Shown here: piece after piece, positions 10,001 through 33,619 of the stretch
How the letters are laid out: the number at the start of each line of letters is the position of its first letter
Position numbering within the stretch: position 1 is the stretch's first letter
Notes under the pieces: model-generated
Databases searched by the model: none
Told to the model about the DNA's origin: nothing
What the model saw: only the letters and a program-made list of their open reading frames with translations
NCBI GenBank assembly: GCA_016196285.1
Contig: JACPXY010000069.1
Span: 1 to 34,171, forward strand
Direction of reading: 5' to 3'
Source: Candidatus Pacearchaeota archaeon
GTDB taxonomy: Archaea > Nanobdellota > Nanobdellia > Pacearchaeales > GW2011-AR1
Length of the DNA stretch: 34,171 nucleotides
Position numbers and translations under genes: made by a program

Positions 10001-13000
10001 CCTCTGGATTGACGTTTGCAGAAGCATTCTATCTCTCCTCACAGAGTTATGCAAATATTGCTTTAGGCGATCCATTGATGCGCATCACAGATATGCAACG
10101 AGTTGGCAACGGAGATATATGCGAGAGCAATGAAGAATGCATCTCAGGCATCTGCAGTGCAGATGTGTCTGGAGTGAATCGATGCCACGCACAGGCAAGT
10201 GCATGTGTGCTGGATGCCTACGGCAGTGAGATTGGAGATGGGAATAATACCTGTCTTGGCACTGGAAAAATCATTCAATGCGCGAATGGAGTCTGGCAGG
10301 AGGCAACGAGTTGTGATGCACAAGCATTGTGCAAAGATGTATTAAATCCAAGCTTCACGAGCAAAATTAATGCTTACTGCGGGCTCCTTCCTGGTGCAAT
10401 CTGCAGCAATGATGCCCAATGCTATAATCTGAATTGCGACTCTGATATCTCTGGAATTAATAGATGCCATTCAAACCCGACAACCTGTGTCCTAGATGCC
10501 TTCGGCAGCCAGACATATAATAACAGCTATGCATGCGTCGATGCTGCGAATAAACGACTGTGCACCAACAATCAATGGACTGAAACAGTGAGCTGTGCAG
10601 AGGGATGCTCAAATGGCTTGTGCGAGAGCGAGCAGCCTTTCACCCTGCCTGCAACACTTATGTTCAAAGCAGGAACGTATTATTATATCACTATTCCATT
10701 TAACACCACTACAAAGAAAGTCAGCGAGCTCTTTGCTGATGCTCCAGACCTCACCAGCGTTTATCTTTATAGAAATGGAGGATGGAGGTATGTCATTAAA
10801 GTATCCTCAGTATTCTGGCTTGGCGACTTAGAAGTAAAGGCTGGAGAAAGTATTCTTGTGCAGCCATCACAGAGCGAGTACTCTATCTCAGTCGCTGGAG
10901 ACGAATATGATACGCCAGTGCCTCTCACGCTTCTGGGAGAATATACTTTGATTGGTGTGCCTTATTGCAGAGATTATAAAGCATCTGAATTACTTGCACA
11001 AACTGCTTCCTCTGGAATCAACTGTACTGTACTCATGCAGGGTGATGCTGGCAGAGGACCTGTTGAATGGTGGTCAGAGAATGCTTCCTATGTACAGGCA
11101 GGTTTGAAGAAGGACTTCACTCTGCGGAACTATGAAGCGTACTTCCTGCGCTGTGCGCAAGAGACGAGTGCAAACTTTACTCCAATCTGTCTTGGACCAG
11201 ACAATCCGCCTGCTATATCTATTAATCTTAATGCGCTGAACCAGACACATACGCACCTGCCCATTGAATTGAATGTCAGCTTGAATGAGCCAGGCAATGT
11301 GACCTACACTCTTGATGGGGGAATTACGAATGTAAGTTTGACTGCCAACGCATCAAGCACAGGATTCGCTGGAATCATTGATAATATCACTGACGGGACG
11401 CACATCATCATTTTCTACGCAAACGACTCTACCGGCAAGGTGAACAGTACTAATGCACTCTTCAGTGTTGCTATCGCGCCAGTATTTACCCAGTTACCAG
11501 AGGCATCTATTATCAGCGTCTATGGTGAAGAGATTACTGCACAATTCAACGCAGTAGACAATGATGCATTAACTTATTCAGTCAACACAAGCATCGTCAG
11601 CATTAATGCATCAGGATTCCTGCGCAATGCCAGTGTGCTCGCTGTCGGAGAGCATACTATCAATGTTACGATCACTGACAGTGCAGGCAATAGCAATTCC
11701 ACACTTTACACCTTTATTATCGAGCGTGCTCCTTCGATTGTCCAGACTTTCCTCAATCATACCCGCGCAAATATCTCTATCTTTAATGAAAGTGTGCTTG
11801 CACTTAACGGCACGCTTCTTGCAGGAGAGAGTGAGATTACAGCACTGCTGGATGGAGAGATTATCGGCACTGGTGCATCAGTTTCTGTGGTCAGAAGCTT
11901 TGCTGATCTTGGCATTCATGCCTTCAGCGTCAGACATCCTGAAACGCAGAACTATACTGCCAGCAATGAAACATGGTATGTTAATGTCAGTATGATGCCT
12001 GATTACATTCCTCCATCAGTGACCTTTATAGTAGAACATCCTGCTCAACCTGTCTTCTATACACCTAATGCACTCTATGAATTCAATGCTACTATTACTG
12101 AAAGTGGATTACTTGGGACAGTTCTGCTGATGTTCAACGGAACAAACTATACTGCAAGCAGGAATGGAGATGTGTATAATGTATCACTTAGAAATCTGAA
12201 TGCATCGACCTATGAATACAGATGGTTTGCAAATGACACGAGCGGAAATGTGAATGAGAGCGAAGGAAGTATTTATACTATCGAGAAAGCTGAGCAGAGC
12301 ATCAACTTCGGAACAATACGGAATCTTTTGTTCGGAGAAGAATTTACGCTTGATGCTGTTTCAACTTCTGGATTGCCTGTGAGTTTTAATATCTTAGAAG
12401 GTTCTGTACGCATTACAGATTCTCTGCTTAGAGCTATAGGTATTGGAGCAGTCAGTATCGAAGCATACAATGCAGGCAATGAAAATTACAATCCTGCACT
12501 GAATGTTACACGCATCTTTAGTGTCGGAAAGGCAACTGCTTCTGTTTCCTTGTCTGGATTAAGTGCTGTCTATGATGGGAACCAGAAAACAGTTAGTTTT
12601 GCTACCATTCCTGAAACCTTGGATGTGACAATTACTTATAATAATTCTCTTGCTCCTCCTATTAATGCAGGAAGCTATCCTATCTTAGCTGTTGTAAACA
12701 ATGAGAGCTATGAAGGGAGTGCAGAAGGTATATTGGTGATAAGCAAGGCAGAGCAGACACTGACTTTTGTACCGCTTGAAAACAAGTTTATTGGTGAACA
12801 GATTGATTTATCTGCAAGCGCTACCTCTGGTTTGCCGATAAGCTTCAGAGTTTTGAGCGGGCCTGGGGTTATTCTAGGAGCTAAGCTAACTGTTAGCGGT
12901 CCTGGAGCAATTGTAGTTGAGGCATCGCAGGCAGGGGATATTAATTATCATCCTGCAGAAAGCATCGAGCGGACGATGAATGGCGAGTGCGGTCCCGATG

Positions 13001-16000
13001 CTGAACAAGTTGGCGACTCATGCGTTTTGCGCTGCACTGATTTCACGTATACTGAATGGGGTGTGTGCAGTATCAACAGTGTACAGACTAGAAGTGTTAT
13101 CTCATCTTCTCCTGCTGGCTGTACCGCAGGAGTTCCTGACACGAGCAGAAGCTGTGCACGCATCTGTACGCCTGATGCAACTCTTGAGTGTGATGCAGTA
13201 ACCAATGGAATTGTATCTGGATATAAGAACAAGTGTAATGCATTGGGCACAGATTGGCTGAATGAAGATACATGCCAATTAACTGGCTGTAACGCTGGAT
13301 TTGTGCAGAATGGCAGTGAGTGCATTCCTGAATGTACTGAAAGCAACTGGCAGTCTTCTCTGAATCCGTTGGTTTGTCCTGTATCAGGAGAGCAGACCAA
13401 GACATGGACAAAGATTGGCACGTGTGAATCCGGCATTCAACATCCTGCAAGCGAACAGGTATCTTGTGATTTTATTGCTCCGACGTGCACTGATTTCACG
13501 TATACTGAATGGAGCATCTGTAGTGTAGAAGGAGTTCAGAATAGAAGTGTCATTACCCAAAGTCCTGAACAGTGTGTTGATGGCACTCCTATCTTGAGTC
13601 AGACTTGCATCCCTATAATCTGCAGTGCTAATGAAGAGGTTGCCTGTGATGCAGTTGTTAATGGAATTGTGGAAGGATACAAGAGGAAGTGCAATGCAGA
13701 AGGGACTGAATGGATGAATACTAATACCTGCACCTTGACTGCGTGCACTACTGGATTCACTAAAGTAGGAGATGTATGTATTGACATCACTCCGCCGAAT
13801 GTAAGCATTCTTTCTCCTCTAAATGGCAACTATACTGCTGTCCAGACTTTACTCTCCTCTTCTGTCTCGACTGATGCACAGATGTGTTGGTACTCTCTTG
13901 ATGGAGGACTAGTGAATGTGAGCACGATATGCGGGCAGACTATCTCTGGCCTGCTCAGCATGGAAGGATTAAATAACTGGCTGATTGGTGTGAATGACAG
14001 TAATGGCAAGGTGAATACTTCTGCAGTGCTCTTCTTTGTTGATAGCATACCTCCTGTGATTGCCTTTGCTGAGAATCCTTTCTTGGTAGAAGATACTCTC
14101 TTCATGAATGTGAGTGCCTTTGATGTTAACCTGGCTAATATCACTCTGATAGTTAGGAATGCAAGCGGCATCATTGCCTCATTTAACTCCACTAATGACT
14201 CGCTTGCTGTAAATCTAACAGGGCTTACTGATGGGCTTTATTCGATTGATGCAACTGCTTATGATGCTATTGGGAATAAGAATAGCACTGATACACATTT
14301 GGTTACAGTATCTCTAGACATAACTCCTCCAGTTATTATACTGCATGAGCCAGCACTTTCTTCGATACTTATCTACAACACCTCAAGCATACTCATTAAT
14401 GCAACTCTTAATGAGCCAGGTAATGTTAACTACACGCTTGATTCTGGAATTACCAATGTTAGCATGCTTGCAAATGCTTCTCTTACTGGATTTATCCATA
14501 TGAATAATAGTCTTGCTGAAGGAACGTATGTGCTCCAAATTTATGCCTTTGATAGCAAAGGCAATGTTAATGCATCTGCATCGCAGACATTCTCATTGGA
14601 TTTAACTGCTCCATCTGTTAGCTATGAACCTGGAACTCCTCTATCAGATGCGCAGCTTGTATCAGGAATATTGATTAATCTAAGTATTGAGGGAGGTATA
14701 CAGAGTATGATTACCTTGTTCAATGCTTCTGGAATCGTGAATGAGAGCACTTCTGTACTGCCACTCCATAGTATCTTATTCGAGCATCTTGCGCCTGGAG
14801 TGTATTCATTCAATGCAAGTGCGCGTGACGCGGCTGGAAATGTGAACAGAACTGGCACTAGAACTGTAAGTGTGCTTGCGCCTCCTGAAATTCCAGGATT
14901 TATCCTGTATGGTCTAGGTACAAATGCAGAGGGCATCTCAGTTAATGCGCAGAATGTGTATGTTAATATAAGTGCGCAACTTGCTTCTGAAACTAATATC
15001 ACCTTCTCCCTGTTCAATGCTTCTGGAATCGTGAATGAGAGCGTGCATGCAACTCCTCTGCGTGTCATTAATTGGACAGGTCTTGCTCTTGGAAGCTATC
15101 AATACAACGTGACAATCAGCAATGCTAGCACAAGCATTTCAACAATCACTCGAAGCATCACACTTACTTCGCCTGCAGTTGCAGAGTCTCCTGTTATCAA
15201 TGTTTATTCTCCTGAGAACATAACGTATACTACTTCTGCTGTTCTCATTAATATCAGCGTGAGCGCGCCTGCTGGAGTGAGCAGTATATTGTTTGCCAAT
15301 GATTCGGGAATTCTTGTTTATTCTTCTCCTGTACTGCAGAATGTTTCTTCTGGAAGCCATACTTGGCAGTTCTCAGTCAATGACTCGCTCGGCAGAGTTG
15401 CCAGTACGATTGTGACTTTCAGCGTGAATGTGAGTGGCAGCCAGCTCTGCACACCTGATGAGATTGTGCCGTGCACTCCTTTGCCGCACGGGGTTGTCTC
15501 AGGTTACACTAATAAGTGCAACAACCTTGGAACTGCCTGGCTTGGACAGTCTTCCTGTACTATCTCCTGTGATGCAGGGTATACCTCTGACGGCAACAAC
15601 TGTGTTGCACTGGCAAGCGGCTATAAAACTATTTTGTACCGCGCTGACCTTGATGTAGTGCGGAATCAGACACATACCCATCTTTATGAAGAGAATACCA
15701 CTTCTCTCTTAGTCTTGCTTGAGGGGAATGTTTCTGAACAGACAATTGCTCCCGTGGTCATTATACGCAATAATCTCACTGAGACGAGAGGATTCTTGCT
15801 GGTTAGAAACCTGACACTTGCTTCTGGACAGTCAAAAACAATCATCTTCGGCAAGCGAAATGTTAGCACGAATGGCATCTGTCTTCGTGATGAGGATAAC
15901 GTTGGAACACTCCAGAGCTTGACCACTGACTGCATCAGAATTGCCTGTCCAGGAACGCGCGGAAGATACAGCTGCACAAACTATGCAGATGCATTTATTG

Positions 16001-16464
16001 TTACTGGATTAAGCAACTCAGGTGTTACTGAAGAAAAACTGTACTGCGGTGATAACTACTGCAGCAGTGCAGAAAGCTGTTCTTCCTGCAGTACTGACTG
16101 CGGCAGCTGTCCAATTAGCGGAAGCGGAAGCAATAATCCGATTATCACTCCGAATGCAAGTACAAGCAGTACGCCTGCTCAACAGCCTACAACCGCTACA
16201 CCTCCGCTCGGCGGGAGAATCTTCCCTGAAGAGAAGACGGATGAAGAATCATCACATCCAGGAGATGAAGATCAGCAGATTACTGAAGATGATAATCCTT
16301 TGACGAATGCTGTGCTTAAAATAGTCAAGAACAGGAAAGCACTATTGTATCTTTTTGAAGGAGTGCTCTTGCTCATGCTTCTCACTATAATTATTATCTT
16401 CTTTATTTATTATGTAAGGTTCAAGCAAAATGCGCGAGGACGCATTGGAATAGGCAGTGTCTAA
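7069..16464 (+). CDS. Giant membrane-anchored surface protein (beta-helix, TIGR03790-like, Cys-rich, TSP1-like and Ig-like domains)
   Basis: 3131 residues. N-terminal signal segment (about 8-26). Residues 57-608: right-handed beta-helix/pectate-lyase-like fold, opening with YYVSPEGDD and GTAEQPWRTIERAF. Residues 639-1008 resemble the TIGR03790 family and end in LTFAEAFYLSSQSYANIALGD. Residues 1013-1180: two Cys-rich modules. Residues 1190-1385: a domain shared with the pilin-like protein at 24584. Then Ig/cadherin-like beta-sandwiches, two thrombospondin-1-like repeats (C1989 and C2140 onward, CTDFTYTEW), further Cys-rich modules, a Cys-rich CGDNYCSSAESC region, a Pro/Ser/Thr linker and a C-terminal membrane helix (about 3091-3116) with a short basic cytoplasmic tail. 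It has many N-x-S/T sequons. Expected outside the cell as an adhesin, sheath or host-contact protein; ligand unknown. CTTAAATA (7040-7047) gives a leaderless start. Confidence 0.85.
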   Translation: MWEKGRIAQFLVLVLALITVSLLLPDVIEQRFISASERSIPSVSGHVIFPSEAEASGVYYVSPEGDDTSPGTAEQPWRTIERAFNASMPVHVSGGSILYLHEGIHRLNLPAFHEASKDLVLDGTPAQPTLISSAPGERARIYLSENVGGWQPYTGRADASIYVADWRSYLQTNQPWYYQDDWRSKPQGVYLDDASPVILQQVNDEKTGIEFKPGLERPASLRTSQNDMIAGDFYYETDSASVNFGKLFIWLPGNANPNEKNVEVSLDYVFGFSTNYTIFHNLTIRYGADIGWAGLAVSGKYNFLDGIDSSYNSFSGLGGRCFNCTVRNSIFSFNGNSGADLVGSYTRYENNTFDSNNRRRFSPAWHCGGIVLSDTDEGIWKISNMTVRGNVFNNTIACAGAWLEWIGSGNVIEYNLFLNNSATSLKIETTNGTRRNPNIVRDNLFIESIDPDRGSNEWSPSALDIESSHFTQVYNNVFVNAAAGILMHSSSSEPQREFLQHNRAVGNIFVKVTNPHLISADSGDGKRVNNTADYSVFWQTSYPMHITPEELNDDKVLFCRELFEECTDDLAEWRAISGNDEHSVIADPRFISIAGFNFTLKSNSPALPLGINTIDTTNIPGFPVSMYQEPLAQIPQNNNVLCIYNQNSQVSQEICEYYILKRPGASILSLDIPESIFTDAQKENSNVENFRRYVNAPVLAYVDAHPELYITHLAVAKDIPMHLTQTLGGTNWDVSASLFLMYPWNFLSEGEFNSYKGSGLNRYVHQIHFNPEQYANHTILLQDATRNPAQNYTIRFMASYLSGYTLDDIKEMIDRAQEPAPDLSRVKWMIDRDTDGFSVSDAVLTTTQTNLISKGIASDNIILEQTDERPITLSDALVAYGGPGEHHANYGGQWIAQNPAILAPVASRAISTSYESYNARTFSGSANHEGQGIIADAFTSGTFGGSEYSRSFAGAAGTVREPSSSGVNAIDTLFPAYASGLTFAEAFYLSSQSYANIALGDPLMRITDMQRVGNGDICESNEECISGICSADVSGVNRCHAQASACVLDAYGSEIGDGNNTCLGTGKIIQCANGVWQEATSCDAQALCKDVLNPSFTSKINAYCGLLPGAICSNDAQCYNLNCDSDISGINRCHSNPTTCVLDAFGSQTYNNSYACVDAANKRLCTNNQWTETVSCAEGCSNGLCESEQPFTLPATLMFKAGTYYYITIPFNTTTKKVSELFADAPDLTSVYLYRNGGWRYVIKVSSVFWLGDLEVKAGESILVQPSQSEYSISVAGDEYDTPVPLTLLGEYTLIGVPYCRDYKASELLAQTASSGINCTVLMQGDAGRGPVEWWSENASYVQAGLKKDFTLRNYEAYFLRCAQETSANFTPICLGPDNPPAISINLNALNQTHTHLPIELNVSLNEPGNVTYTLDGGITNVSLTANASSTGFAGIIDNITDGTHIIIFYANDSTGKVNSTNALFSVAIAPVFTQLPEASIISVYGEEITAQFNAVDNDALTYSVNTSIVSINASGFLRNASVLAVGEHTINVTITDSAGNSNSTLYTFIIERAPSIVQTFLNHTRANISIFNESVLALNGTLLAGESEITALLDGEIIGTGASVSVVRSFADLGIHAFSVRHPETQNYTASNETWYVNVSMMPDYIPPSVTFIVEHPAQPVFYTPNALYEFNATITESGLLGTVLLMFNGTNYTASRNGDVYNVSLRNLNASTYEYRWFANDTSGNVNESEGSIYTIEKAEQSINFGTIRNLLFGEEFTLDAVSTSGLPVSFNILEGSVRITDSLLRAIGIGAVSIEAYNAGNENYNPALNVTRIFSVGKATASVSLSGLSAVYDGNQKTVSFATIPETLDVTITYNNSLAPPINAGSYPILAVVNNESYEGSAEGILVISKAEQTLTFVPLENKFIGEQIDLSASATSGLPISFRVLSGPGVILGAKLTVSGPGAIVVEASQAGDINYHPAESIERTMNGECGPDAEQVGDSCVLRCTDFTYTEWGVCSINSVQTRSVISSSPAGCTAGVPDTSRSCARICTPDATLECDAVTNGIVSGYKNKCNALGTDWLNEDTCQLTGCNAGFVQNGSECIPECTESNWQSSLNPLVCPVSGEQTKTWTKIGTCESGIQHPASEQVSCDFIAPTCTDFTYTEWSICSVEGVQNRSVITQSPEQCVDGTPILSQTCIPIICSANEEVACDAVVNGIVEGYKRKCNAEGTEWMNTNTCTLTACTTGFTKVGDVCIDITPPNVSILSPLNGNYTAVQTLLSSSVSTDAQMCWYSLDGGLVNVSTICGQTISGLLSMEGLNNWLIGVNDSNGKVNTSAVLFFVDSIPPVIAFAENPFLVEDTLFMNVSAFDVNLANITLIVRNASGIIASFNSTNDSLAVNLTGLTDGLYSIDATAYDAIGNKNSTDTHLVTVSLDITPPVIILHEPALSSILIYNTSSILINATLNEPGNVNYTLDSGITNVSMLANASLTGFIHMNNSLAEGTYVLQIYAFDSKGNVNASASQTFSLDLTAPSVSYEPGTPLSDAQLVSGILINLSIEGGIQSMITLFNASGIVNESTSVLPLHSILFEHLAPGVYSFNASARDAAGNVNRTGTRTVSVLAPPEIPGFILYGLGTNAEGISVNAQNVYVNISAQLASETNITFSLFNASGIVNESVHATPLRVINWTGLALGSYQYNVTISNASTSISTITRSITLTSPAVAESPVINVYSPENITYTTSAVLINISVSAPAGVSSILFANDSGILVYSSPVLQNVSSGSHTWQFSVNDSLGRVASTIVTFSVNVSGSQLCTPDEIVPCTPLPHGVVSGYTNKCNNLGTAWLGQSSCTISCDAGYTSDGNNCVALASGYKTILYRADLDVVRNQTHTHLYEENTTSLLVLLEGNVSEQTIAPVVIIRNNLTETRGFLLVRNLTLASGQSKTIIFGKRNVSTNGICLRDEDNVGTLQSLTTDCIRIACPGTRGRYSCTNYADAFIVTGLSNSGVTEEKLYCGDNYCSSAESCSSCSTDCGSCPISGSGSNNPIITPNASTSSTPAQQPTTATPPLGGRIFPEEKTDEESSHPGDEDQQITEDDNPLTNAVLKIVKNRKALLYLFEGVLLLMLLTIIIIFFIYYVRFKQNARGRIGIGSV
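13033..13512 (+). repeat. Pair of identical 27-bp direct repeats encoding the TSP1-like motif
   Basis: 13033-13059 and 13486-13512 are identical and both encode CTDFTYTEW, the start of each thrombospondin-like module. Perfect DNA identity inside otherwise diverged modules suggests recent duplication or conversion, or constrained codon choice. Confidence 0.7.
14717..15042 (+). repeat. 32-bp direct repeat within Ig-like modules
   Basis: 14717-14748 and 15011-15042 are identical and encode FNASGIVNES in two neighbouring Ig-like domains of the giant protein. The repeat could mediate loss or gain of a roughly 98-residue module, since the offset of 294 bp is a multiple of three. Confidence 0.7.
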
Positions 16465-22192: not shown

Positions 22193-23851
22193 ATGAAGGA
22201 TTTTTCCAAGGAGATTATGGCATATGCGCTGAAAAATGCGCTTGAATTTGGGAAAGCAGATGCAGGAAAAATACTCCCTAAACTATTTCAGCACGGGCTT
22301 GAGAAGAAAGATATCCAGAACATTATGCCTTCTGTGCAGAAGATTGTGAAGGAAGTTAATTCTCTGAAGAACAAGGAGAAAGAATTTGAGAAATACAGGC
22401 AATATGTTAAGGAACATGCAGAAGAGTTAAAAGGGTTGCCTGAATTGCCGAACGCAGGAGAAGGAATGGTATTCCGGCTTGCACCCTATCCTTCGGGGGC
22501 ATTGCATATCGGGAATGCAAAGACGTATCTGCTTAATGCATTATATGCTGAGAGATATTCTGCAAAGACCTTGCTCATTATGGACGACACAATCGGCAGT
22601 GAGGAGAAGCAGATAGCGCCTGAAGCATATGAGTTAATTGAGAGCGGATTTAAATGGCTCAATGTGAAGTACTCTAAGGTCTACTATAAATCGGATCGTC
22701 TTGACCTCTATTACTCCTATGGTGAGAAACTCTTGCAGCTGAATAAGGGATACATCTGCACTTGTGCTCAAGAAGTATTGCGCAAGAATCGCGAATCTGG
22801 AAAGGAATGTTCGTGTAGGATTCTGAAAGCAACAGAGCAGAATAAGCGATGGAAGGAGATGTTCAGTGGAGAACCTGGCTCGGCAGTGATGCGCTTGAAG
22901 ACCAGTATGCAGCATCCGAATCCTGCCTTCCGAGATAGAGTATTGTTCAAGATTTCAGACAGGAAGCATCCTCGAGTCGGAACGAAGTATCGCGTTTGGC
23001 CTACATTGGAGATGAGCTGGGCTGTTGATGACCATGAATTTGATATTACTCACATCCTGCGCGGCAATGATTTGATGATTGAGACTGATATGGAAAAGTT
23101 TATCTGGGATATTTTCAGCTGGAAGCATCCTGTTGTTATCCATACAGGTTTGGTCAAACTGGAGCTCGAGGGTGCGAAATTGTCAAAATCAAAGGCACAG
23201 CAGGAAGTCAAGTCGGGCGAGTTCTCGGGATGGGATGACCCAAGAACCTGGAGCATTCAGAGTCTTGAACGCAGAGGCATTAAACCAGAGGCAGTCAGGG
23301 AATTTATTGAGGAGATAGGGCTCAATAAACAGGATATCACTGTACCTATTGAAGCATTGTATTCACACAATAGAAAATTAATTGATGCTGAAGCACTAAG
23401 ACATTCATTTGTTGCTGAACCGGTCGGCATTAGAGTCAAGAAAGCACCTGTAATAAAGAAGATTACTATTCCAGTGCACCCTGATAAGAAAGAGATGCGA
23501 GAGATGTCTATTGGCACAGAGCTGTATATCGGTAAAAGTGATTTTGAGGCATATAAAGGACAGGAGATACGGTTATTGCACTTGTACAACATCAAGCTCT
23601 CCGCATCTGGCGCAGTGTTCACATCTGAAGAAAATAAACCGATTCAGAAGATTAATTGGGTGACGAATCCTGTCAAGGCAAGAATCCTAATGCCGAACGG
23701 CATCTGGAAGGATGGATATGCTGATTCAGGCATTGCAGAACTCTCAGTCAACGATGTCATTCAATTTGAGCGATATGGATTCTGCAGGCTCGATGCCATT
23801 AAGAAGAACGGCAAAAGCTTAATGTACGAGTTTTGGTTTGGGCATAAGTGA
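22193..23851 (+). CDS. gltX: Glutamyl-tRNA synthetase, archaeal type
   Basis: 552 residues from ATG 22193. A helical N-terminal extension (about 1-85) typical of archaeal GluRS is followed by the class I catalytic core with HIGN (105-108) in ALHIGNAKTYLLNALYAERY and KLSKS (about 329-333) as the KMSKS loop. A CTC...CSC pattern near 190-210 is a likely zinc site. The C terminus is the beta-barrel anticodon domain of the archaeal/eukaryotic branch. It charges tRNA-Glu; in most archaea it also misacylates tRNA-Gln for GatDE, which cannot be judged here. CTTAAATA near 22164-22171 lies 26 nt before the ATG, so the GTG at 22184 is not used. Confidence 0.9.
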   Translation: MKDFSKEIMAYALKNALEFGKADAGKILPKLFQHGLEKKDIQNIMPSVQKIVKEVNSLKNKEKEFEKYRQYVKEHAEELKGLPELPNAGEGMVFRLAPYPSGALHIGNAKTYLLNALYAERYSAKTLLIMDDTIGSEEKQIAPEAYELIESGFKWLNVKYSKVYYKSDRLDLYYSYGEKLLQLNKGYICTCAQEVLRKNRESGKECSCRILKATEQNKRWKEMFSGEPGSAVMRLKTSMQHPNPAFRDRVLFKISDRKHPRVGTKYRVWPTLEMSWAVDDHEFDITHILRGNDLMIETDMEKFIWDIFSWKHPVVIHTGLVKLELEGAKLSKSKAQQEVKSGEFSGWDDPRTWSIQSLERRGIKPEAVREFIEEIGLNKQDITVPIEALYSHNRKLIDAEALRHSFVAEPVGIRVKKAPVIKKITIPVHPDKKEMREMSIGTELYIGKSDFEAYKGQEIRLLHLYNIKLSASGAVFTSEENKPIQKINWVTNPVKARILMPNGIWKDGYADSGIAELSVNDVIQFERYGFCRLDAIKKNGKSLMYEFWFGHK

Positions 23852-24010
23852 GTATTCACAATGGCTGAAGATTATCTATCGTATTGTCAAGTTAAATTGC
23901 TCCACCCTTAACATCTATTCTACATATTTTATTATCTGCAATCTGGAAGTCCTAAGATCTAACGGAACCACGATAAGAAAGATTTATAAAGAGATTTCGT
24001 GTTTAATAGA

Positions 24011-24130
24011 TATGCATTCAAAGAGAGGGTTGAGCGATGTTGTCACTACTGTCTTGATTATTCTCCTAGTTGTTGCCGCTGTTGCTTCCATCTGGGTTTT
24101 CATTCAGCCGACGCTCAAGTCAGCCGGCTC
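24011..24130 (+). repeat. 120-bp perfect direct repeat, first copy
   Basis: Identical to 24583-24702. It begins one base before the ATG of the first pilin-like gene and covers its signal peptide and N-terminal helix (residues 1-39). The flanking promoters are not identical. Confidence 0.95.
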
Positions 24131-24482
24131 CGGAATTCAGCGAGGGCAGGTGTGCTTGACAAGCAGTGTTGAGCCGTTGTCTTGCAAGCTTTCCAATGCT
24201 ACGACTAGCACGTATAATGTTGCTTATCGCAGAACCACTGATAATGCCCTTGTTAAGAATGTAAGCAGCATGAAAATTACGCTAGAGTTATCTGACGGAA
24301 CAGTTATTACCAAAGATGGCGATATTAATCTTGCGAATGGAGCTTCTAACTCGACAGCCTTTGGTGCGGGGAACAAGAGTGTCAAGCAAGTCTCGATTGT
24401 AACTGAGTACTTATTGAATGACGGTCCGAAACAGACGTGCACAAGCCCGCCTTTGACTTGTGATAATACGGCGAGCTCATAG
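24012..24482 (+). CDS. Pilin/archaellin-like protein 1 with class III signal peptide
   Basis: 156 residues. MHSKRG precedes LSDVVTTVLIILLVVAAVASIW, the charged start plus hydrophobic helix processed by archaeal prepilin peptidases, and the usual start of archaeal type IV pilins or archaellins. The rest is a Ser/Thr-rich beta domain with Cys residues and a TCTSPPLTC motif near the end. It is probably assembled into a filament or held in the membrane by its helix. TTTATAAA (23983-23990) is 26 nt before this ATG; the longer open frame to 23838 overlaps GluRS and is not used. Confidence 0.75.
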   Translation: MHSKRGLSDVVTTVLIILLVVAAVASIWVFIQPTLKSAGSGIQRGQVCLTSSVEPLSCKLSNATTSTYNVAYRRTTDNALVKNVSSMKITLELSDGTVITKDGDINLANGASNSTAFGAGNKSVKQVSIVTEYLLNDGPKQTCTSPPLTCDNTASS

Positions 24483-24536: not shown

Positions 24537-24582
24537 ATTAGTTCTTGGAACAACATTTATATAGATTCTTGAAATCTAAGGG

Positions 24583-24702
24583 TATGCATTCAAAGAGAGG
24601 GTTGAGCGATGTTGTCACTACTGTCTTGATTATTCTCCTAGTTGTTGCCGCTGTTGCTTCCATCTGGGTTTTCATTCAGCCGACGCTCAAGTCAGCCGGC
24701 TC
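24583..24702 (+). repeat. 120-bp perfect direct repeat, second copy
   Basis: Identical to 24011-24130, including all third codon positions; it encodes the same N-terminal 39 residues of the second pilin-like protein. Identity stops sharply at both ends. Confidence 0.95.
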
Positions 24703-25561
24703 TAGATTGACGAATGGAGCCTCGAACTCGACGCGCTTTCCTATTTCAGGAACTGCTCGGCAAGCATCACTAAGTGCTGCTTTTAATCTTGAGGATGGGA
24801 GCGAACAAGTCTGCACAAGCCCGCCAGTGCCATGCAGTATCGGAGGAATGGCTTCACAGTCAGATACTATCGGTGGAGATTCGATTCCTAATCCTTCTGC
24901 CTCACCTGGAACAACCGGCACTAGTACAAGTACTTCTGCCTCATCTCCTTCTTCCCTATATCAAACCTCGACAGGAGCAAGCGTTGCGAGATATAATCAG
25001 AGCACAAGTGTTCTCAGTTTATCAGAAGGAGTGCACTATCTAGTATTGCCTAAAGACCCCTCTGACCGAAGCTTGAATTCCCTGTTCCCTTCTGTGCCTA
25101 CCCAGACTGCCTTCTCGATTTTGCGCGCAGATGTTTGGCAGACCCGCACCTCAACAGGGCAGGGTTTCACTAATAATCCTAGCCCTGGATTGCAGGCTGG
25201 AGAAGGGTTTATGTTTGAAGTTAAAAGAGAGTATTCGTTTGTTGTGCAAGGACCTGCACTCGACGCGCCTGTTTCTGTGCAGCTGAATGCAGGACAAAAT
25301 CTCTTTGGCGTGCCTTATTGTCCTGGCAGTTTTAGTTATTCTGCTTCTGATGTGCTTAAAGAACTCTCTTCTCTAAACAAGCCATGCACAATTATCGCAA
25401 AGCCGGCTGTTATCTCATCAGCAGAAGAATGGTATTCAACTGATGCATTGTATCAAGCACCAGGGATTGAGAATGATTTTATGCTGAACAGAATTGGGTC
25501 ATACCGTCTTACCTGCGGTTCAAGCATGTCTGCCTTTGCCTGGACACCTCAGTGTGAGTGA
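24584..25561 (+). CDS. Pilin-like protein 2 with added domain shared with the giant surface protein
   Basis: 325 residues. The first 39 residues are identical to pilin 1. It then rejoins the pilin 1 sequence at TNGASNST with 65 codons (195 bp) missing in frame, and retains the CTSPP...C motif. After a Ser/Thr/Pro linker (about 105-140) comes a domain (about 141-325) matching residues 1190-1385 of the giant surface protein: compare LFGVPYC with LIGVPYC, LQAGEGFMF with VKAGESILV, and YRLTC with YFLRC. It probably presents this domain on a filament or at the membrane. ATTTATATAG (24555-24564) is 25 nt before this ATG, so the longer frame to 24545 is not used. Confidence 0.75.
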   Translation: MHSKRGLSDVVTTVLIILLVVAAVASIWVFIQPTLKSAGSRLTNGASNSTRFPISGTARQASLSAAFNLEDGSEQVCTSPPVPCSIGGMASQSDTIGGDSIPNPSASPGTTGTSTSTSASSPSSLYQTSTGASVARYNQSTSVLSLSEGVHYLVLPKDPSDRSLNSLFPSVPTQTAFSILRADVWQTRTSTGQGFTNNPSPGLQAGEGFMFEVKREYSFVVQGPALDAPVSVQLNAGQNLFGVPYCPGSFSYSASDVLKELSSLNKPCTIIAKPAVISSAEEWYSTDALYQAPGIENDFMLNRIGSYRLTCGSSMSAFAWTPQCE

Positions 25562-26955: not shown

Positions 26956-28665
26956 CTACTCTCTCAGCTCTATCTTTCTCTGCAGCTCTTTAATGAACTC
27001 TGTTGGCTTGATGCCGAACTCCGGCTTCTTGCCTCTTGAGCGGACTGCAAGCGTGCCTTTCTCCTCTTCCTTGTCGCCTATGACTATGATGTACGGTACT
27101 TTTTGCACTTCGGCATCACGCACCTTATCACTGACAGTCGTGTTCCTGAAGTCGGTATCAATCCGCGTTTTGGGAAGTTCTTTCCTAAGATGTTCTGCCA
27201 CCTTCTCGGCTGCCTTTACATTCCTGTCTGTGAAATTAATAATCCTGACCTGCACTGGAGAGAGCCAGACTGGCAGAACGCCTGAAGTCTGCTCAAGCAG
27301 ATATGCTACAAAGCGCTCAAAACTACCCAGAATCGCCCGATGAATGATAATCGGATACTGCTTCTCTCCTTTCTCATCGATATAATGCATCTCCAACCTC
27401 TTCGGGATTACGATATCTACTTGTGAGGTGGCAATGGTTTCCTCTTTTCCTTGCGAATTCTTGATTTGCACGTCAATCTTAGGCCCATAAAATGCAGCTT
27501 CTCCAACTTCTTCTGTAAACTTCTTTCCTGATGCGCTCATTGCTTTCCTAATCTCATCGCATGCATGCATCCATTCCTTCGGGTCGCCGGTGAACTTATC
27601 AGGCTTGCCTGCAAAGTCAGGCAATGAAAGCCTGAACCAGTAATCTTTAATACCTACTTTTTTGTATACTTCTTCAAATAGATTAATTACTTTTAAGAAT
27701 TCCTCTTTCAGCTGGACAGGGGTGCAATAGATGTGTGAATCATTCTGGGTAAATGCTCTGACACGAATCAGTCCATAGGTTACTCCTGAAAGTTCTTGCC
27801 GGTACGTCATGCCTGGTTCTGCAAGCCTCAAGGGAAGATCACGATAACTCTTGACAATCTTATTGAAAATCATATGATGGTGCGGGCAGTTCATAGGCTT
27901 CAGATAGTAGTTAACTCCTTCAATCTGGATAGGAGGATACATGCTCTCTGCGTAATATGGCAAGTGACCTGTTTTCTCGTAGATTGTGCCCTTAGTAATA
28001 TGCGGTGTGGATACATATTTGTAGCCATGTTTTTCCTCTACCTCGCGCATGAACTCAATTAACTCATGCCTGATAGTCTCCCCATTCGGCAGCCACAACG
28101 GCAAACCTGGGCCAATCTCATCGCTGAGATAGAAGATACCCAAATCCTCTCCAAGAATTCTATGGTCATTTGGCTTCAGATTTCTCCTGTCAAGAATAAT
28201 CTTCTTCTCTTTGCCTGGCTTCATTGCGGGTTTTGCATTCGGAGTTGCTTCAGCGACCCTGAACTCCTTGCTTAATTCAGAAAGGGGATGACCTTTGCAC
28301 TTCAATTCAAACTCTTTGTAATAGCCGAATGGTGCGCGGGTGACTTCGTATCCTTCCTTCTGAAGCGTGTGCTGCGCAGAGACCATCCACTCCAACGCAG
28401 TATCAGGCGGGGCGAGCATGCTGGAGAGGTGCGCATACGGATACAATACAATCTTTCTTGCTTTCACTTCTTCTGCGGTTTTCTTGACTGCTGCAAGGTA
28501 TTGCTTCAAAATAGAGTCATTATCTCCCTGTTCTACTGCAGTCAAGACTACCAAACAGTCCTTGACCTCTTTCTGCTCTTTATCCTTCAAATCCTCTGCT
28601 TTTGCCAGCGCTTTCTTGAGCGGCTTGAACTTGATGTAATCGCAATGCAGTGTAATCAGTCGCAT
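26956..28665 (-). CDS. thrS: Threonyl-tRNA synthetase, archaeal type
   Basis: 569 residues. Residues 1-140 match the archaeal D-aminoacyl-tRNA-deacylase-like editing domain (MRLITLHCDYIKF; IVLYPYAHLSS), which removes mischarged serine, rather than the bacterial TGS/N2 domains. The class II core follows: zinc ligands C260 (PMNCPHHH), H311 (NDSHIYC) and H442, motif 2 around R289 (YRQELSG) and motif 3 GSFERFVAYLLEQ (447-459). Residues from about 465 form the anticodon-binding domain. The TATA-like ATTTAAAG, centre about 28691, is 26 nt before the ATG. Slightly shorter than most archaeal ThrRS, with no key motif missing. Confidence 0.93.
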   Translation of the reverse strand: MRLITLHCDYIKFKPLKKALAKAEDLKDKEQKEVKDCLVVLTAVEQGDNDSILKQYLAAVKKTAEEVKARKIVLYPYAHLSSMLAPPDTALEWMVSAQHTLQKEGYEVTRAPFGYYKEFELKCKGHPLSELSKEFRVAEATPNAKPAMKPGKEKKIILDRRNLKPNDHRILGEDLGIFYLSDEIGPGLPLWLPNGETIRHELIEFMREVEEKHGYKYVSTPHITKGTIYEKTGHLPYYAESMYPPIQIEGVNYYLKPMNCPHHHMIFNKIVKSYRDLPLRLAEPGMTYRQELSGVTYGLIRVRAFTQNDSHIYCTPVQLKEEFLKVINLFEEVYKKVGIKDYWFRLSLPDFAGKPDKFTGDPKEWMHACDEIRKAMSASGKKFTEEVGEAAFYGPKIDVQIKNSQGKEETIATSQVDIVIPKRLEMHYIDEKGEKQYPIIIHRAILGSFERFVAYLLEQTSGVLPVWLSPVQVRIINFTDRNVKAAEKVAEHLRKELPKTRIDTDFRNTTVSDKVRDAEVQKVPYIIVIGDKEEEKGTLAVRSRGKKPEFGIKPTEFIKELQRKIELRE

Positions 28666-28702
28666 GATGCAGTTACAGAATGGGATTATTTAAAGATGTT
28701 GT

Positions 28703-29719
28703 CTACTTCTTATCGGCAGAGAGCAGTGTTGAAGCAGCATTTTCCTGAGAGATATGTACTTGCTCTAGCGTATTCTCTATCATCTTTGCAATTGCCTCTT
28801 GGGGAGATACGTTTCCCTGGAGCACTTTTTTGTATATTCCAGGACCATGTCTATACTGGAGAAGCTGGAAGAATGTGCTTCCTTTGACATAATCTTCCAT
28901 CTCAGTCTCATTCATTGAATATGGGCTCTTGGGTAATACGCGAGGAGTGCATACTTCTCCTCTCTCTGCAAGCTTCTCTCTCATCCACTCTGCTGTTACT
29001 GCCAATGCAGCCATTCTCTCTAATTCAACACTGCATTTTAATTGCAGAGCACCTTCCTCGTCTGACCATTGAGAGGCAAGATGATGCTCAACACCCTTTG
29101 CATGGCCTTCGCACATCATGCTGAATCTATGACCTTGAGGCAGCCCCCGCGTATGTTGCACGTGATGCGTGTACTCATGAAGCGCTCCTGAGAGTACTTT
29201 TTCCCGCGTCTTTCCTGGCAGGGAGACCTCTGCAAAACGTGGAAAATAACTGGCGTTACTTCCATCCCTTAGGTAGAAGAATCCTGCAAGCATTGCCTGC
29301 ATCATCCCTGCTCCCATAAGCCCTCCCCCCATAACTTCATTGTAAGGAGTAATCAACGATCCAGCTGAAAGCAAAGAGGCTGCTATAAGTGAGGGTAATC
29401 TCACTCCTGGAGTAAGCCGATAAAATGATAATGTTGGAAGAGAAACATCGCTGCTTTCCAGCAGAGTATTGACTTTCTCCCGCGCTTTTGTCAAGAGAGC
29501 CTGTTTTTCTTCTTGCGAGACTCTCTCCCCTTTTTCTTCAGAGAGCAGAGCAAAAATCGAATCCAAGCTCTCGCCGTGCTCTTCACACTCCGCAATCATA
29601 TTTAATCCGCGTGCATAGATTAGCGCTTCGGTAAACTGCACGAGCTCTTTTTGCAGCAGAATCTCTTCAAGAACATCGTTATGCCATTCTTCAGAGAGTT
29701 TTTGTTTTGATGCGTTCAT
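28703..29719 (-). CDS. HExxH metallopeptidase-like protein (gluzincin-like)
   Basis: 338 residues from ATG 29719. LHEYTHHVQ gives H181-E182-x-x-H185, and MCEGHAKGVEHH follows about 20 residues later, where E204 (or E211) could be the third zinc ligand as in gluzincins. A hydrophobic, Gly/Met-rich segment (about 107-150) precedes the motif and may be membrane-associated. No signal peptide at the N terminus, which is helical and charged. Substrate unknown. The frame extends to 29740, but TTATAAAC (29742-29749) lies 27 nt from 29719 and only 6 nt from 29740, so the shorter start is used. Divergent from the lysozyme gene. Confidence 0.6.
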   Translation of the reverse strand: MNASKQKLSEEWHNDVLEEILLQKELVQFTEALIYARGLNMIAECEEHGESLDSIFALLSEEKGERVSQEEKQALLTKAREKVNTLLESSDVSLPTLSFYRLTPGVRLPSLIAASLLSAGSLITPYNEVMGGGLMGAGMMQAMLAGFFYLRDGSNASYFPRFAEVSLPGKTREKVLSGALHEYTHHVQHTRGLPQGHRFSMMCEGHAKGVEHHLASQWSDEEGALQLKCSVELERMAALAVTAEWMREKLAERGEVCTPRVLPKSPYSMNETEMEDYVKGSTFFQLLQYRHGPGIYKKVLQGNVSPQEAIAKMIENTLEQVHISQENAASTLLSADKK

Positions 29720-29821
29720 TCTCTTTAGGCGAATTATCATCTTATAAACTTTTCTATTGTCGTATCTACCAAGGAGTTACAAAAAGCAAAGGTTTAAAAG
29801 AACAGGAGAATCCTGAAATCT

Positions 29822-30415
29822 ATGAAGCAAAGAGGGCTAACTGTCTTGCTTGCAAGCGCGTACCTTTTGGGAGCGCCTTTGGCGAGCGAGAGCGCTGCTG
29901 CAGAGACAAGAGATTCGCTTGACAAACGGATGATTCAGCACGAAGGATATAGAACGAAAGTATACAAGGACAGTGAAGGCATTCCTACCATCGGCATCGG
30001 CTTCAACCTCTCGAGAAAAGACGCTCCATTTTACATGCAAAAAATCGGCGCTGATCACCAGCGGATTATGGAAGGCAAGCAGGAACTGACCGAGCGACAG
30101 GTTACTGACCTGTATCTCATGGAAAAATCGAATGTTCATACTTCTGCGAAGAGAATGTTCCCTGATTTTGACACGCACCCTGTTGTCGTGCAGGAAGTCG
30201 TGTTTGAGATGATCTATAATCTGGGTGCGCGTGGCTTCGGCAAATTTGAGAAGACGGTCGCTGCCATTAAGAGACGGGATTATGAGACTGCTGCCCAAGA
30301 GATGCAAAACTCCAAATGGTATGCGCAAGTAGGCAATCGCAGCAAGACACTCGTGCAGCAGATGAAGTCTGCTGCAGTGAAGCAGAAAAGCAAACAGAAT
30401 AAGAACCATGAATAA
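29822..30415 (+). CDS. Secreted T4-type lysozyme (GH24 muramidase)
   Basis: 197 residues. A signal peptide (1 to about 27: KQRGLTVLLASAYLLGAPLA, then an SESAAA|ET-like cleavage site) is followed by a complete GH24 domain. The catalytic triad is E41 (IQHEGYR), D50 (VYKDSEG) and T56 (PTIGIGF), with the same 9- and 6-residue spacings as E11/D20/T26 of phage T4 lysozyme. Downstream NLGARGFGKF and KWYAQVGNRSKTL match the C-terminal lobe. The enzyme cleaves the MurNAc-GlcNAc bonds of bacterial peptidoglycan, which archaea lack, so the target is probably bacterial. TTTAAAAG (about 29792-29799) gives leaderless spacing, so the gene carries a native-style archaeal promoter. The Lys-rich tail is extra. 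Confidence 0.9.
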   Translation: MKQRGLTVLLASAYLLGAPLASESAAAETRDSLDKRMIQHEGYRTKVYKDSEGIPTIGIGFNLSRKDAPFYMQKIGADHQRIMEGKQELTERQVTDLYLMEKSNVHTSAKRMFPDFDTHPVVVQEVVFEMIYNLGARGFGKFEKTVAAIKRRDYETAAQEMQNSKWYAQVGNRSKTLVQQMKSAAVKQKSKQNKNHE

Positions 30416-30506
30416 GCTGATTGAAGCACAGAATCATATCCTCTATTGGAGCGAGCGCAGCATCTGTATCATGCGACGCCTATCTGTTCTCTAAATAGTC
30501 TCTCTT

Positions 30507-31616
30507 TCACGTCTTTATGAACTTCTTCAAATCTTTCTTCGCCTTCTCGCGGTTTGCCGCGTGCGTCTTGACGAAAGACTGCATTTTATCTATGAGATAC
30601 GCCTTTAACTCTCCTGAAAGGAGTTTCCCAGAACGATAGTCTGTTTCAAGTTTCTGCAGCTTCTTGTCATCCGGCTCGAAGATGTACTTGAGATACTGGA
30701 ATGAGACATCAATGTCTGGATTGCCGCCGTGCTTCCGATGCTCTTCTAACGTATCTTTTCCTCCTGAAAACGCATACTTGTTTATTTTCTTCTTTATCTC
30801 TTCCGGAGAATCGGTCAGTGCGATGAATGAAGTAGAATCTGAGGAAGACATCTTTCCCCCATTCAAACCTGGAATAAAGATATGATAAGTCGAGCTGAGC
30901 TGAGTAAAGGCAAATTCCTTGGCGCGCTGCGCAATGTCGCGAGCGAGCCGAAGATGCGGATCCTGGTCAATGCCTACTGGAACAATGACTGGCACTGGAC
31001 CTTCGAACTCTGCTAATTGAGGATGCAGCATGTCAGATGCCTGAAGCAGTGCTGAAAGCATCTTGCCTGGCGTGATGTCTCCGTAGACTGCCTTGAACTC
31101 ATTGAATGTTGCATACCGGGCGAGCTGGTTTTGCAGACGATAGAACGCATTTGCTTTCTCGGCATCGGTGCTCCTATCACTCTGGAAATAAATCTCGCAA
31201 TTCTCCGGCTTCAGGCCAAGTGAGATATAATTTGTGATGTATTCCTCGATGGCAATCTTCCGGCTCTCCTCCAGTGATTGACCGCGAGCATTGTATGCCT
31301 CCAGATCAGCAACCGCGATGTAGAGCTTTGCGCCGTGCTGCTGATAGAATATCATCTGCTGGGCAACCAGCATATGACCGATATGGAACTTGCCAGTTGG
31401 CATCAGACCGGTCATCATCACATATGGTTTCTTGCTCTTCATGGCTTCAAGAATGCGCTGGATATCTCGATGGGCAAAAACCACCTTTCTTCTGAACAGT
31501 ACATTTTTCGTAAAGATATCCGGCAGCTCCTTAAGAGGTGAGATGCCGAACTCCTTGACCAGCTTGTCGTAGTCAATATCTCCTTTTACCTCCCATGGAT
31601 TCATGACCTGTGACAT
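30507..31616 (-). CDS. trpS: Tryptophanyl-tRNA synthetase, archaeal/eukaryotic type
   Basis: 369 residues. N-terminal NPWEVKGDIDYDKLVKEFG is the characteristic opening of archaeal and eukaryotic TrpRS. HIGH (78-81, GKFHIGHML) and KMSSS (255-259, NGGKMSSSD) are the class I signature motifs. ADLEAYNAR and VGIDQDPHLRLARDIA line the active site. It charges tRNA-Trp. TTTATAAA (31638-31645) is 25 nt before the ATG at 31616. Divergent from the pseudo-cyclase gene. Confidence 0.93.
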   Translation of the reverse strand: MSQVMNPWEVKGDIDYDKLVKEFGISPLKELPDIFTKNVLFRRKVVFAHRDIQRILEAMKSKKPYVMMTGLMPTGKFHIGHMLVAQQMIFYQQHGAKLYIAVADLEAYNARGQSLEESRKIAIEEYITNYISLGLKPENCEIYFQSDRSTDAEKANAFYRLQNQLARYATFNEFKAVYGDITPGKMLSALLQASDMLHPQLAEFEGPVPVIVPVGIDQDPHLRLARDIAQRAKEFAFTQLSSTYHIFIPGLNGGKMSSSDSTSFIALTDSPEEIKKKINKYAFSGGKDTLEEHRKHGGNPDIDVSFQYLKYIFEPDDKKLQKLETDYRSGKLLSGELKAYLIDKMQSFVKTHAANREKAKKDLKKFIKT

Positions 31617-31637
31617 CTGACTCCGAGGCAGCGGATG

Positions 31638-31678
31638 TTTATAAAGCTTACAGACGGGAATGCAATAAGGTTTATATA
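31638..31678. promoter_or_regulatory. Divergent promoter pair (TrpRS and pseudo-cyclase gene)
   Basis: TTTATAAA at 31638-31645 serves TrpRS (start 31616). TTTATATA at 31671-31678 serves the plus-strand gene (start 31700). Both are centred 25-26 nt from the start codon. Their cores lie 25 bp apart, so the two initiation complexes could interfere. Confidence 0.6.
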
Positions 31679-31699
31679 GAAACTCTCATTAAAAAACAG

Positions 31700-33619
31700 A
31701 TGAAAAAAGGGTTGTTCTTTGTACTCATTGTCCTCCTGCTTCCTGCTGTTTCTGCTGAGCTATTCCTGACGCAGCCTTCTGGATTGTACAATCTGGGAGA
31801 TGAGCTGAACATGACGATAAGCATCACTAGGCCTGCACAAACGAATGATTTTGCAACTGTTGCATTAACGTGCAATGGCAGTGAGCTTGAATTGTATAAA
31901 AGTCCGGTAAGCGTGAAAGCAGGCGAGCAGAAGCAGCTCTCGTTTACCAGTGCTCTGGACAATTTTGTGCTTGGAGGATTAAGAGGAGACTGTGTACTGC
32001 AGGCAGCATATGCAGACGAGTCGGTGGAAAGCAGACGATTTGAAATTAGTGACGAGGTTATCGTAACTATTACTCTGCCAGCAAGCATTGTTGATCCTGG
32101 AAGCATTCTTCAGATTAGCGGAAATGCTGTCAAAAAGAATGGACAGCCTCTTACTGGAAGTGTTGAGATGGGTATTGCGCAGCTCGGCAGCTCTGCATTG
32201 ACTGCTGTGCAAAATGGAGCCTTTGTATTTAATGTAAGTATTCCTGCACAGGCGCGTTCAGGGCTGTATCCTATAAAAGTAAGTGCATATGACACTGACT
32301 TTTCTTCACAGACTGCTAATCACGGCAGTGCTGAAACAACAGTACGGATTCGCCAGGTCTTGACACGGCTTGATATCGCTTTGAGCAGCCTTTCGCTCTT
32401 TCCTGGAAACAATCTCAGCTATACTGTTCTTGCCTACGACCAGGCAGATGATGAGATGGCCGCGGATACCCATGTGCAGATCTTTACACCTCTCGGAGCA
32501 GTACGGACAGACAAGCTTGCACAGACAGGAGCTACCCAAACTCTCAGCTCTAATTCTAATGATACCTCTGGCTCGTGGAGCATCAGTGCGCAAGCTGATT
32601 CATTACAGACTGCCAAATCCTTTCTTGTTGAGGAGCATATGAATGCCACCTTTGTACTGGAGAATGACGTATTAGTAATAAGGAATACAGGCAATGTACA
32701 GTATACTAAGCCAGTACACATCTCTATTGGAGAAAATGGACAGATCAAAGATGTCTCTCTGGATGTCGGCATGGAGAAGCGGTATCGGCTGGATGCTCCT
32801 GACGGCGAGTATGCTATTGAAGTAGATGACGGCAACCTAACCTCTGAACTCGGAAGCGTTTTCTTATCAGGCAATGCTGTTTCTGTTAGAGACACTGATG
32901 AGAATTTTATCTCGACTATGCCCTGGTTCTGGGTTATCATCATCCTTGTTGTGGGATGCATTGGCTTCTTCTATTATCTGAAGACAGCCAAGCGCGATTA
33001 TTGGAGTGAAGCTTCAGCTCCTGCGCCTACCAGTCCGCGCATTGCGGTACTAAAACCTCATGCTGGAAAGGAGACTAAGATTAATCAAGGAGAGAAACAG
33101 AAAGCAACCTTTGTTGCACTCAAGCTCAAGCATGAACCTGCCTCGGGACCTGCGCATGAGACTATTAAGAAAGTGATTGCAGAAGCCAAGGCAGCGCAGG
33201 CTCACGGTTCAAAAACACCAGGAAGCATGATGTTTGTCCTTACTTCGGCAACGACAAAGCGCCAGGAAAACACGCTCGAAGGCGTACAGCTTGCACAGAC
33301 CTTAAGTGCCTTGTTAAGTGAACATAACCAGAAATACAGCCAAAAGATTGAGTATGGCATTGGAGTTCATGATGGAGAACTGATTGCCGAGCTTACCAAA
33401 GGCTCGTTTGCATACCATGCTCTGGGCAATGCAGTAATTGCTGCAAAGAAGCTTGCTGCAAGCGTTGAGAATGGGGTAAGCATCTCTGATCCTGTGCATA
33501 GCATAACTAGAGCACGGGTGAAGGTTGAGCGCGGACGCGAAGGATGGAATGTCAAGAGCATTAATGACAACTCTAAGTACAGCGATTTCATCGACAGCTT
33601 CATGCATAGAAATGGCTAG
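31700..33619 (+). CDS. Single-pass surface protein with degenerate class III cyclase-like cytoplasmic domain
   Basis: 639 residues from ATG 31700. Signal peptide KKGLFFVLIVLLLPAVSA, then about 385 extracellular residues of Ig-like/CARDB-like beta-sandwiches with N-glycosylation sequons, a membrane helix (about 409-427, WFWVIIILVVGCIGFFYYL) and a cytoplasmic part. Residues 468-600 follow the order of class III nucleotidyl cyclases: KATFVALKL (468-476), a helix ending before GSMMFVLTSA (508-517), IEYGIGVHDGE (550-560, compare RIGIGIHTGE) and LGNAVIAAKKLA (575-586, compare IGDAVNLAARLE). The metal-binding Asp positions and the transition-state Asn and Arg are replaced (V/L, I, K), so catalysis is unlikely. 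TTTATATA 26 nt upstream fixes the start; the frame to 31610 overlaps TrpRS. Confidence 0.65.
   Translation: MKKGLFFVLIVLLLPAVSAELFLTQPSGLYNLGDELNMTISITRPAQTNDFATVALTCNGSELELYKSPVSVKAGEQKQLSFTSALDNFVLGGLRGDCVLQAAYADESVESRRFEISDEVIVTITLPASIVDPGSILQISGNAVKKNGQPLTGSVEMGIAQLGSSALTAVQNGAFVFNVSIPAQARSGLYPIKVSAYDTDFSSQTANHGSAETTVRIRQVLTRLDIALSSLSLFPGNNLSYTVLAYDQADDEMAADTHVQIFTPLGAVRTDKLAQTGATQTLSSNSNDTSGSWSISAQADSLQTAKSFLVEEHMNATFVLENDVLVIRNTGNVQYTKPVHISIGENGQIKDVSLDVGMEKRYRLDAPDGEYAIEVDDGNLTSELGSVFLSGNAVSVRDTDENFISTMPWFWVIIILVVGCIGFFYYLKTAKRDYWSEASAPAPTSPRIAVLKPHAGKETKINQGEKQKATFVALKLKHEPASGPAHETIKKVIAEAKAAQAHGSKTPGSMMFVLTSATTKRQENTLEGVQLAQTLSALLSEHNQKYSQKIEYGIGVHDGELIAELTKGSFAYHALGNAVIAAKKLAASVENGVSISDPVHSITRARVKVERGREGWNVKSINDNSKYSDFIDSFMHRNG

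Follow-up and report, generated by a model that had tools for sequence, protein, structure and literature searches.

The known hosts of cultured DPANN archaea are themselves archaea, and the locus described here bears on the question of whether bacteria, too, can serve DPANN archaea as hosts or prey. An archaeal antibacterial GH25 was reportedly described by Metcalf et al. in 2014. Archaeal peptidoglycan hydrolases (PGHs) that kill bacteria have been established (Strock et al. 2025, PMC12352652). Going by its main text, the underlying survey was restricted to modular enzymes that carry a binding domain; no mention of GH24 or of a fixed locus was found there. Action on bacterial walls has been proposed for the giant transglycosylase-domain proteins of Pacearchaeota and Woesearchaeota (PMC8204110; PMC9723730). 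Related features are also found in the GH24 (T4-type) phage endolysins (PF00959) and in polymorphic effector or bacteriocin loci.

Here, we analyzed a lysozyme gene of a Candidatus Pacearchaeota archaeon in a window, i.e., the whole stretch of DNA under analysis, of 34,171 nucleotides. The window is an entire 34-kb contig of an 864-kb genome that is 81% complete. Like the archaeal antibacterial PGHs covered in the main text of PMC12352652, the window lysozyme is archaeon-encoded, horizontally acquired, and patchily distributed, and it is a candidate for export; unlike them, it is a single-domain protein, has no binding domain of the kind by which those enzymes were selected, and is part of a swappable slot. 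It extends the known archaeal PGHs to single-domain types, which that survey, going by its main text, left out by design. The lysozyme shares fold, E/D/T residues, and domain length with the GH24 phage endolysins, and its ancestry with tailed-phage endolysins of the GFNL-motif group, whereas its gene lies on an archaeal chromosome with a predicted signal peptide and an archaeal promoter and without a lysis cassette. The giant murein-transglycosylase-domain proteins (fam00969, PMC8204110) have in common with the slot genes the DPANN setting, a peptidoglycan-cutting domain, and a proposed contact with bacteria; they are large (up to 3,000 amino acids [aa]) surface proteins encoded elsewhere, while the slot genes encode small, predicted secreted enzymes. 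Polymorphic effector and bacteriocin loci likewise exchange unrelated catalytic modules between close relatives at a fixed site, but the slot has neither a conserved delivery module nor an immunity gene, and its producer seems to have no murein to protect.

A T4-type lysozyme gene on an archaeal contig

The lysozyme gene and its surroundings comprise the following features (window coordinates).

26956-28665, minus strand: thrS, for an archaeal ThrRS that carries the archaeal editing domain; left boundary of the slot, conserved
28666-30506, no strand: thrS-trpS interval, variable wall-hydrolase slot; intervals of relatives hold GH24, SLT, SleB-like, NlpC-like, DUF5675, amidase, M15, or nothing
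28703-29740, minus strand: 345-aa orphan with an HEYTHH metallopeptidase-like motif and a hydrophobic stretch, inside the slot
29793-29800, plus strand: TATA box TTTAAAAG, beginning 29 nt before the lysozyme ATG
29822-30415, plus strand: GH24 (T4-type) lysozyme gene, predicted exported product, 197 aa, ATG start
29822-29902, plus strand: predicted Sec signal peptide, residues 1-27 (MKQRGLTVLLASAYLLGAPLASESAAA), from hydropathy and charge pattern; low pLDDT there
29936-30358, plus strand: GH24 catalytic domain with E41, D50, and T56, from Pfam (residues 39-179) and conservation
30507-31616, minus strand: trpS, archaeal TrpRS; conserved right slot boundary, convergent with the lysozyme gene
31610-33619, plus strand: 669-aa exported or membrane surface protein, conserved beyond trpS

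The window protein matches PF00959 (Phage_lysozyme) over residues 39 to 179 with 39.9 bits (curated cut-off, 22.3), and its PHROG matches are tail, virion, and endolysin lysozymes. T4 lysozyme was the top solved-structure match by sequence (E = 6e-13; about 25% identity) and also ranked first (TM of 0.77 by target length) in a Foldseek search with an AlphaFold model based on an alignment of the window protein and nine viral relatives. The mean pLDDT of this model was 88.6, with low confidence over approximately the first 30 residues. E41, D50, and T56 correspond in the alignment to the catalytic residues of T4 lysozyme and keep the T4 spacing. D50 is invariant among 13 aligned homologues and E41 and T56 are nearly so, and all three are invariant in a 10-row set of the window and viral sequences. 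Alignments, PF00959 match, and predicted fold uphold the initial annotation, which had described an intact GH24 triad with phage-like spacing, and the gene product should be a T4-type muramidase cutting bacterial peptidoglycan. A Pfam scan revealed a single domain and no separate wall-binding module; the homologue in genome G074 bears LysM.

At the N terminus, K2 and R4 are followed by strongly hydrophobic residues 6 to 17 (mean hydropathy of 1.97 over this 12-residue stretch) and then by SESAAA/E, an AAA/E-type cleavage site. This clear n/h/c-region pattern, read from the sequence, is Sec-like and in keeping with the signal peptide that had been proposed. N-terminal hydrophobic segments occur in 46 of 58 slot PGHs versus 127 of 275 background open reading frames (ORFs) (p = 5e-6), and some slot PGHs have Tat motifs.

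Promoter statistics were drawn from the window and the slot loci. The best TATA box lies at exactly 29 nt in 11 of the 18 other window genes examined and at 28 nt in a twelfth. The lysozyme box, which agrees with the consensus at 6 of 8 bases and is somewhat weaker than the majority of native ones, does stand at the distance seen in most native genes, as had been claimed. Promoter adaptation is real (box at -29) and recurs in many slot hydrolase genes: a TATA-like box (at least 6/8) was present within 23 to 36 nt in 41 of 58 slot PGHs, a figure without a shuffled control. The lysozyme would be transcribed as a single gene from this archaeal promoter and exported via the Sec route.

The small-subunit (SSU) rRNA of the genome covered all 1478 positions of the archaeal model with 1321.6 bits; this model also matches bacteria, so score and coverage are what count. 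In the window, the thrS product has an archaea-specific editing domain, and gltX exceeds the archaeal equivalog cut-off. No Mur ligase (Mur_ligase_M) was matched in the same genome or in the other family genomes searched, all of which are to be read as incomplete. The closest sequences of the lysozyme are tailed-phage genes (44 to 49% identity), and phage-like GH24 contigs are present in three other bins (G059, G195, and G157), as would be expected if the gene had come from a bacterium or phage through contig contamination or as part of a provirus. For this locus, the idea is refuted by synteny, and we assign it a negligible probability. The lysozyme lies between archaeal thrS and trpS, an arrangement of housekeeping flanks conserved across many related genomes, and in another genus, this interval on a 575-kb contig houses a homologue of 42% identity; these findings exclude the contaminant contig that would have undone the initial annotation. 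The four other window proteins scanned had no PHROG matches, the neighbors of the lysozyme are tRNA synthetases, and neither holin, spanin, nor phage structural genes of a prophage lysis cassette were found beside it; with no viral neighbors and an archaeal TATA box at -29, a provirus was ruled out.

Origin of the archaeal GH24 genes

The window protein was matched in 16 of 200 genomes of the same order, all belonging to one family, and five further genomes of the order harbor a lambda-like PF00959 protein. Among 378 genomes of the class, all PF00959 matches above cut-off belong to that one family. Phage relatives in IMG/VR show 33 to 49% identity to the window lysozyme, the best exceeding the best archaeal relative (42%), while a search for close cellular relatives across genome contigs yielded one weak bacterial match.

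In a 71-row tree, the archaeal T4-type sequences emerge at several places within a GFNL-motif group of phages, and starred branches indicate at least three origins. A single ancient archaeal GH24 was ruled out, since the tree demands these separate origins. The window lysozyme pairs with a viral sequence (99/85), whose long branch leaves the nearest neighbor unsure. Phage or bacterial origin had been expected; the GH24 phylogeny backs phage ancestry and supports descent of the window lysozyme from tailed phages. A DPANN-like archaeon would have captured the gene; the DPANN-like assignment is drawn from genome size, relatives, and synteny.

Three phage-like contigs (G059:C42, G195:C157, and G157:C40; loci L032, L039, and L040) had been binned into archaeal genomes. 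Their GH24 sequences group with named phages, and they were treated as binning errors and left out; automated surveys of archaeal lysozymes call for caution on this point.

The thrS-trpS interval as a hydrolase slot

Most GH24 homologues sit between thrS and trpS, and the region upstream of thrS was hence fetched in 120 more genomes of the order, regardless of lysozyme presence. One arrangement is widely conserved: thrS, then the interval, trpS, and the surface protein. Altogether, 84 loci have a closed slot, of which the unbiased fetch contributed 74; the median interval is 1.0 kb. Class HMMs and clustering assigned a PGH-type gene to 42 of the 84 and other genes to 24, and 18 were empty; a hydrolase in the slot is thus not obligatory. 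Ten of the 42 PGH-type slots stem from loci fetched because of their GH24, and the unbiased share is 32 of 74. By Pfam, opposite-strand interval genes encode SLT (15), Phage_lysozyme (9), Hydrolase_2 (8), DUF5675 (3), and Amidase_2 (3) domains and, once each, Amidase_3, M15, and NlpC/P60, while no PGH domain was detected in 30 same-strand interval genes. Slots with exchangeable hydrolases were counted in about 37 genus codes, and the interval is a hydrolase slot across the DPANN-like family. The initial annotation had considered the lysozyme alone: the GH24 is real, yet a lone lysozyme is too narrow a description, since unrelated PGHs occupy the same interval in relatives. No linked immunity, holin, or secretion partner was found. 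In the main texts of the open-access papers searched, we found no report of the slot.

In the thrS-fetched closed loci, SLT, SleB-like, and NlpC-like matches numbered 28 inside the slot versus 1 outside (P = 3e-21; the slot makes up 16.5% of the bases, which is the share expected by length), a ratio that is partly circular because the class HMM seeds were taken from slot proteins. In genome-wide Pfam counts, which are independent of these seeds, the coordinates of about 15 of the roughly 80 small SLT ORFs fall inside the slot, as do those of 8 of the 22 PF07486 matches; for an interval of about 1.2 kb on average, chance would put no more than about 0.1 of either kind there. The NlpC-like profile matched in 18 genomes, and in about 10 the match lies in the slot. 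PGH genes on the strand opposite to thrS outnumbered those on the same strand 43:0, compared with 47:32 for other slot genes (p = 6e-8).

Slot content changes rapidly. On a TrpRS tree of 72 genomes, about 41 changes of slot type are required, where shuffling gives 44.5 on average, which ties content to ancestry only weakly; the count is approximate, as TrpRS itself could be transferred with the slot. Sister genomes carry unlike slots (SleB-like in G149 and DUF5675 in G153; GH24 in G199 and SleB-like in G200), and within the window's own genus, by genus code, GH24 is found in the window, NlpC-like in G002, and neither in G001. Two close pairs of slot genes other than the window lysozyme, which is without a close relative, gave dN/dS values of about 0.27 and 0.37, indicating that slot genes are maintained.

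The 24 slots with other genes, the 18 empty ones, and the arrival of GH24 from phages on at least three occasions would also fit a neutral hotspot, that is, an interval merely tolerant of insertions in which phage-derived lysins are frequent cargo. We regard this as improbable, given that wall hydrolases are strongly enriched over other cargo, that their orientation is fixed (43:0), that archaeal promoters and predicted signal peptides recur, and that two gene pairs are under purifying selection.

Several slot residents were noted besides the annotated hydrolases. A predicted secreted Cys-His family with invariant C, W, and H (alignment A6) and at best a weak NlpC/P60 match and none in PDB (L048:594-1127, L053:1431-2012, L125:6823-7482, L142:534-1187, L160:530-1090, and others) is possibly a new group of peptidoglycan peptidases or amidases. 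The NlpC-like group had no significant match in a PDB profile search, and a plasmid search with a small slot protein gave no match. Predicted exported DUF5675 proteins (L150:6059-6652, L153:5583-6287, and L155:5448-6143) include one with a weak Tlde1 match, which hints at a peptidoglycan (LD-transpeptidase-like) enzyme; for both the NlpC-like and the DUF5675 slot members, we only infer that they act on peptidoglycan. Small ParB-like genes with a DGHH motif recur in three genera, sometimes adjoining a hydrolase gene (L123:6234, L153:7140, L154:7129, and L162:3159), and the slots of genus code g84 repeatedly contain a KaiC/RecA-like ATPase gene (L151, L152, L156, L163, L164, and others). The HEYTHH orphan beside the lysozyme had no homologue among 180 genomes of the order and was rejected as a conserved HExxH partner.

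Candidate roles of the slot enzymes and further surface proteins

The placement of unrelated PGHs in the same interval by relatives strengthens the proposed role of the lysozyme against bacteria. Unrelated enzymes that share only peptidoglycan as known substrate, carry predicted export signals, come from producers seemingly without murein, and occupy one place in a single orientation point to bacterial walls as their target, be it in killing, host entry, or feeding. We consider it probable that the window gene encodes an exported antibacterial or host-wall muramidase and is one allele, the current one, of a rapidly exchanged wall-hydrolase locus. The enzyme would cleave the glycan strands of bacterial peptidoglycan outside its producer, and members of the family would install varying exported wall hydrolases, i.e., glycosidases, lytic transglycosylases, amidases, and SleB-type and Cys-His peptidase-like enzymes. 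Most likely, they would be used to breach or lyse bacterial walls, whether those of hosts, prey, or competitors, and swapping would adapt the locus as its targets change.

The slot enzymes might instead digest dead bacteria or debris of peptidoglycan for sugars and amino acids, with living cells not attacked. The reduced genomes and the hypotheses of peptidoglycan as an amino acid source for Pacearchaeota (PMC11537232) favor such scavenging, and predicted export signals are equally compatible with it. It appears unlikely to us, though the strongest of the alternatives, since a single enzyme per genome, of ever-changing bond specificity, would be ill suited to degradation, turnover that carries little phylogenetic signal more closely resembles an arms race or a switching of targets, and no linked uptake genes were seen. 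That the hosts of cultured DPANN are archaea could suggest a non-bacterial target glycan, e.g., in the producer's own surface coat or in that of an archaeal host. We deem this very improbable: the slot families are unrelated in fold, cut glycan, amide, or peptide bonds, and have only peptidoglycan as common known substrate, which fits murein rather than one archaeal glycan.

If the slot enzymes are indeed directed at bacterial walls, different bacterial hosts or prey may select different hydrolases. The further notion that the whole DPANN-like family lives on bacteria, with the slot as a wall-breaching, target-matching locus whose content predicts the bacterial partner, is tentative, and we lean against it at present. 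The slot supplies a defined set of enzymes that can be assayed for specificity and compared with the bacteria that co-occur, and may help to name the partners of the lineage.

SLT-domain giants of 1,300 to 3,200 aa were found in G139 (L038, 6168-13205, minus strand) and in about 30 other genomes and are probably the fam00969 proteins of PMC8204110. The G139 protein carries both GH24-like and SLT domains; no mention of the added GH24 domain was found in PMC8204110. In the window, a 3131-aa surface protein (7069-16464, plus strand) has Ig-like and MBG domains by Pfam and a C-terminal hydrophobic stretch that is probably membrane-anchoring. One class III (pilin-type) signal segment, MHSKRGLSDVVTTVLIILLVVAAVASIWVF, is identical in two tandem genes (23838-24482 and 24545-25561, plus strand), and genes similar to this pair recur adjoining the slot in relatives.
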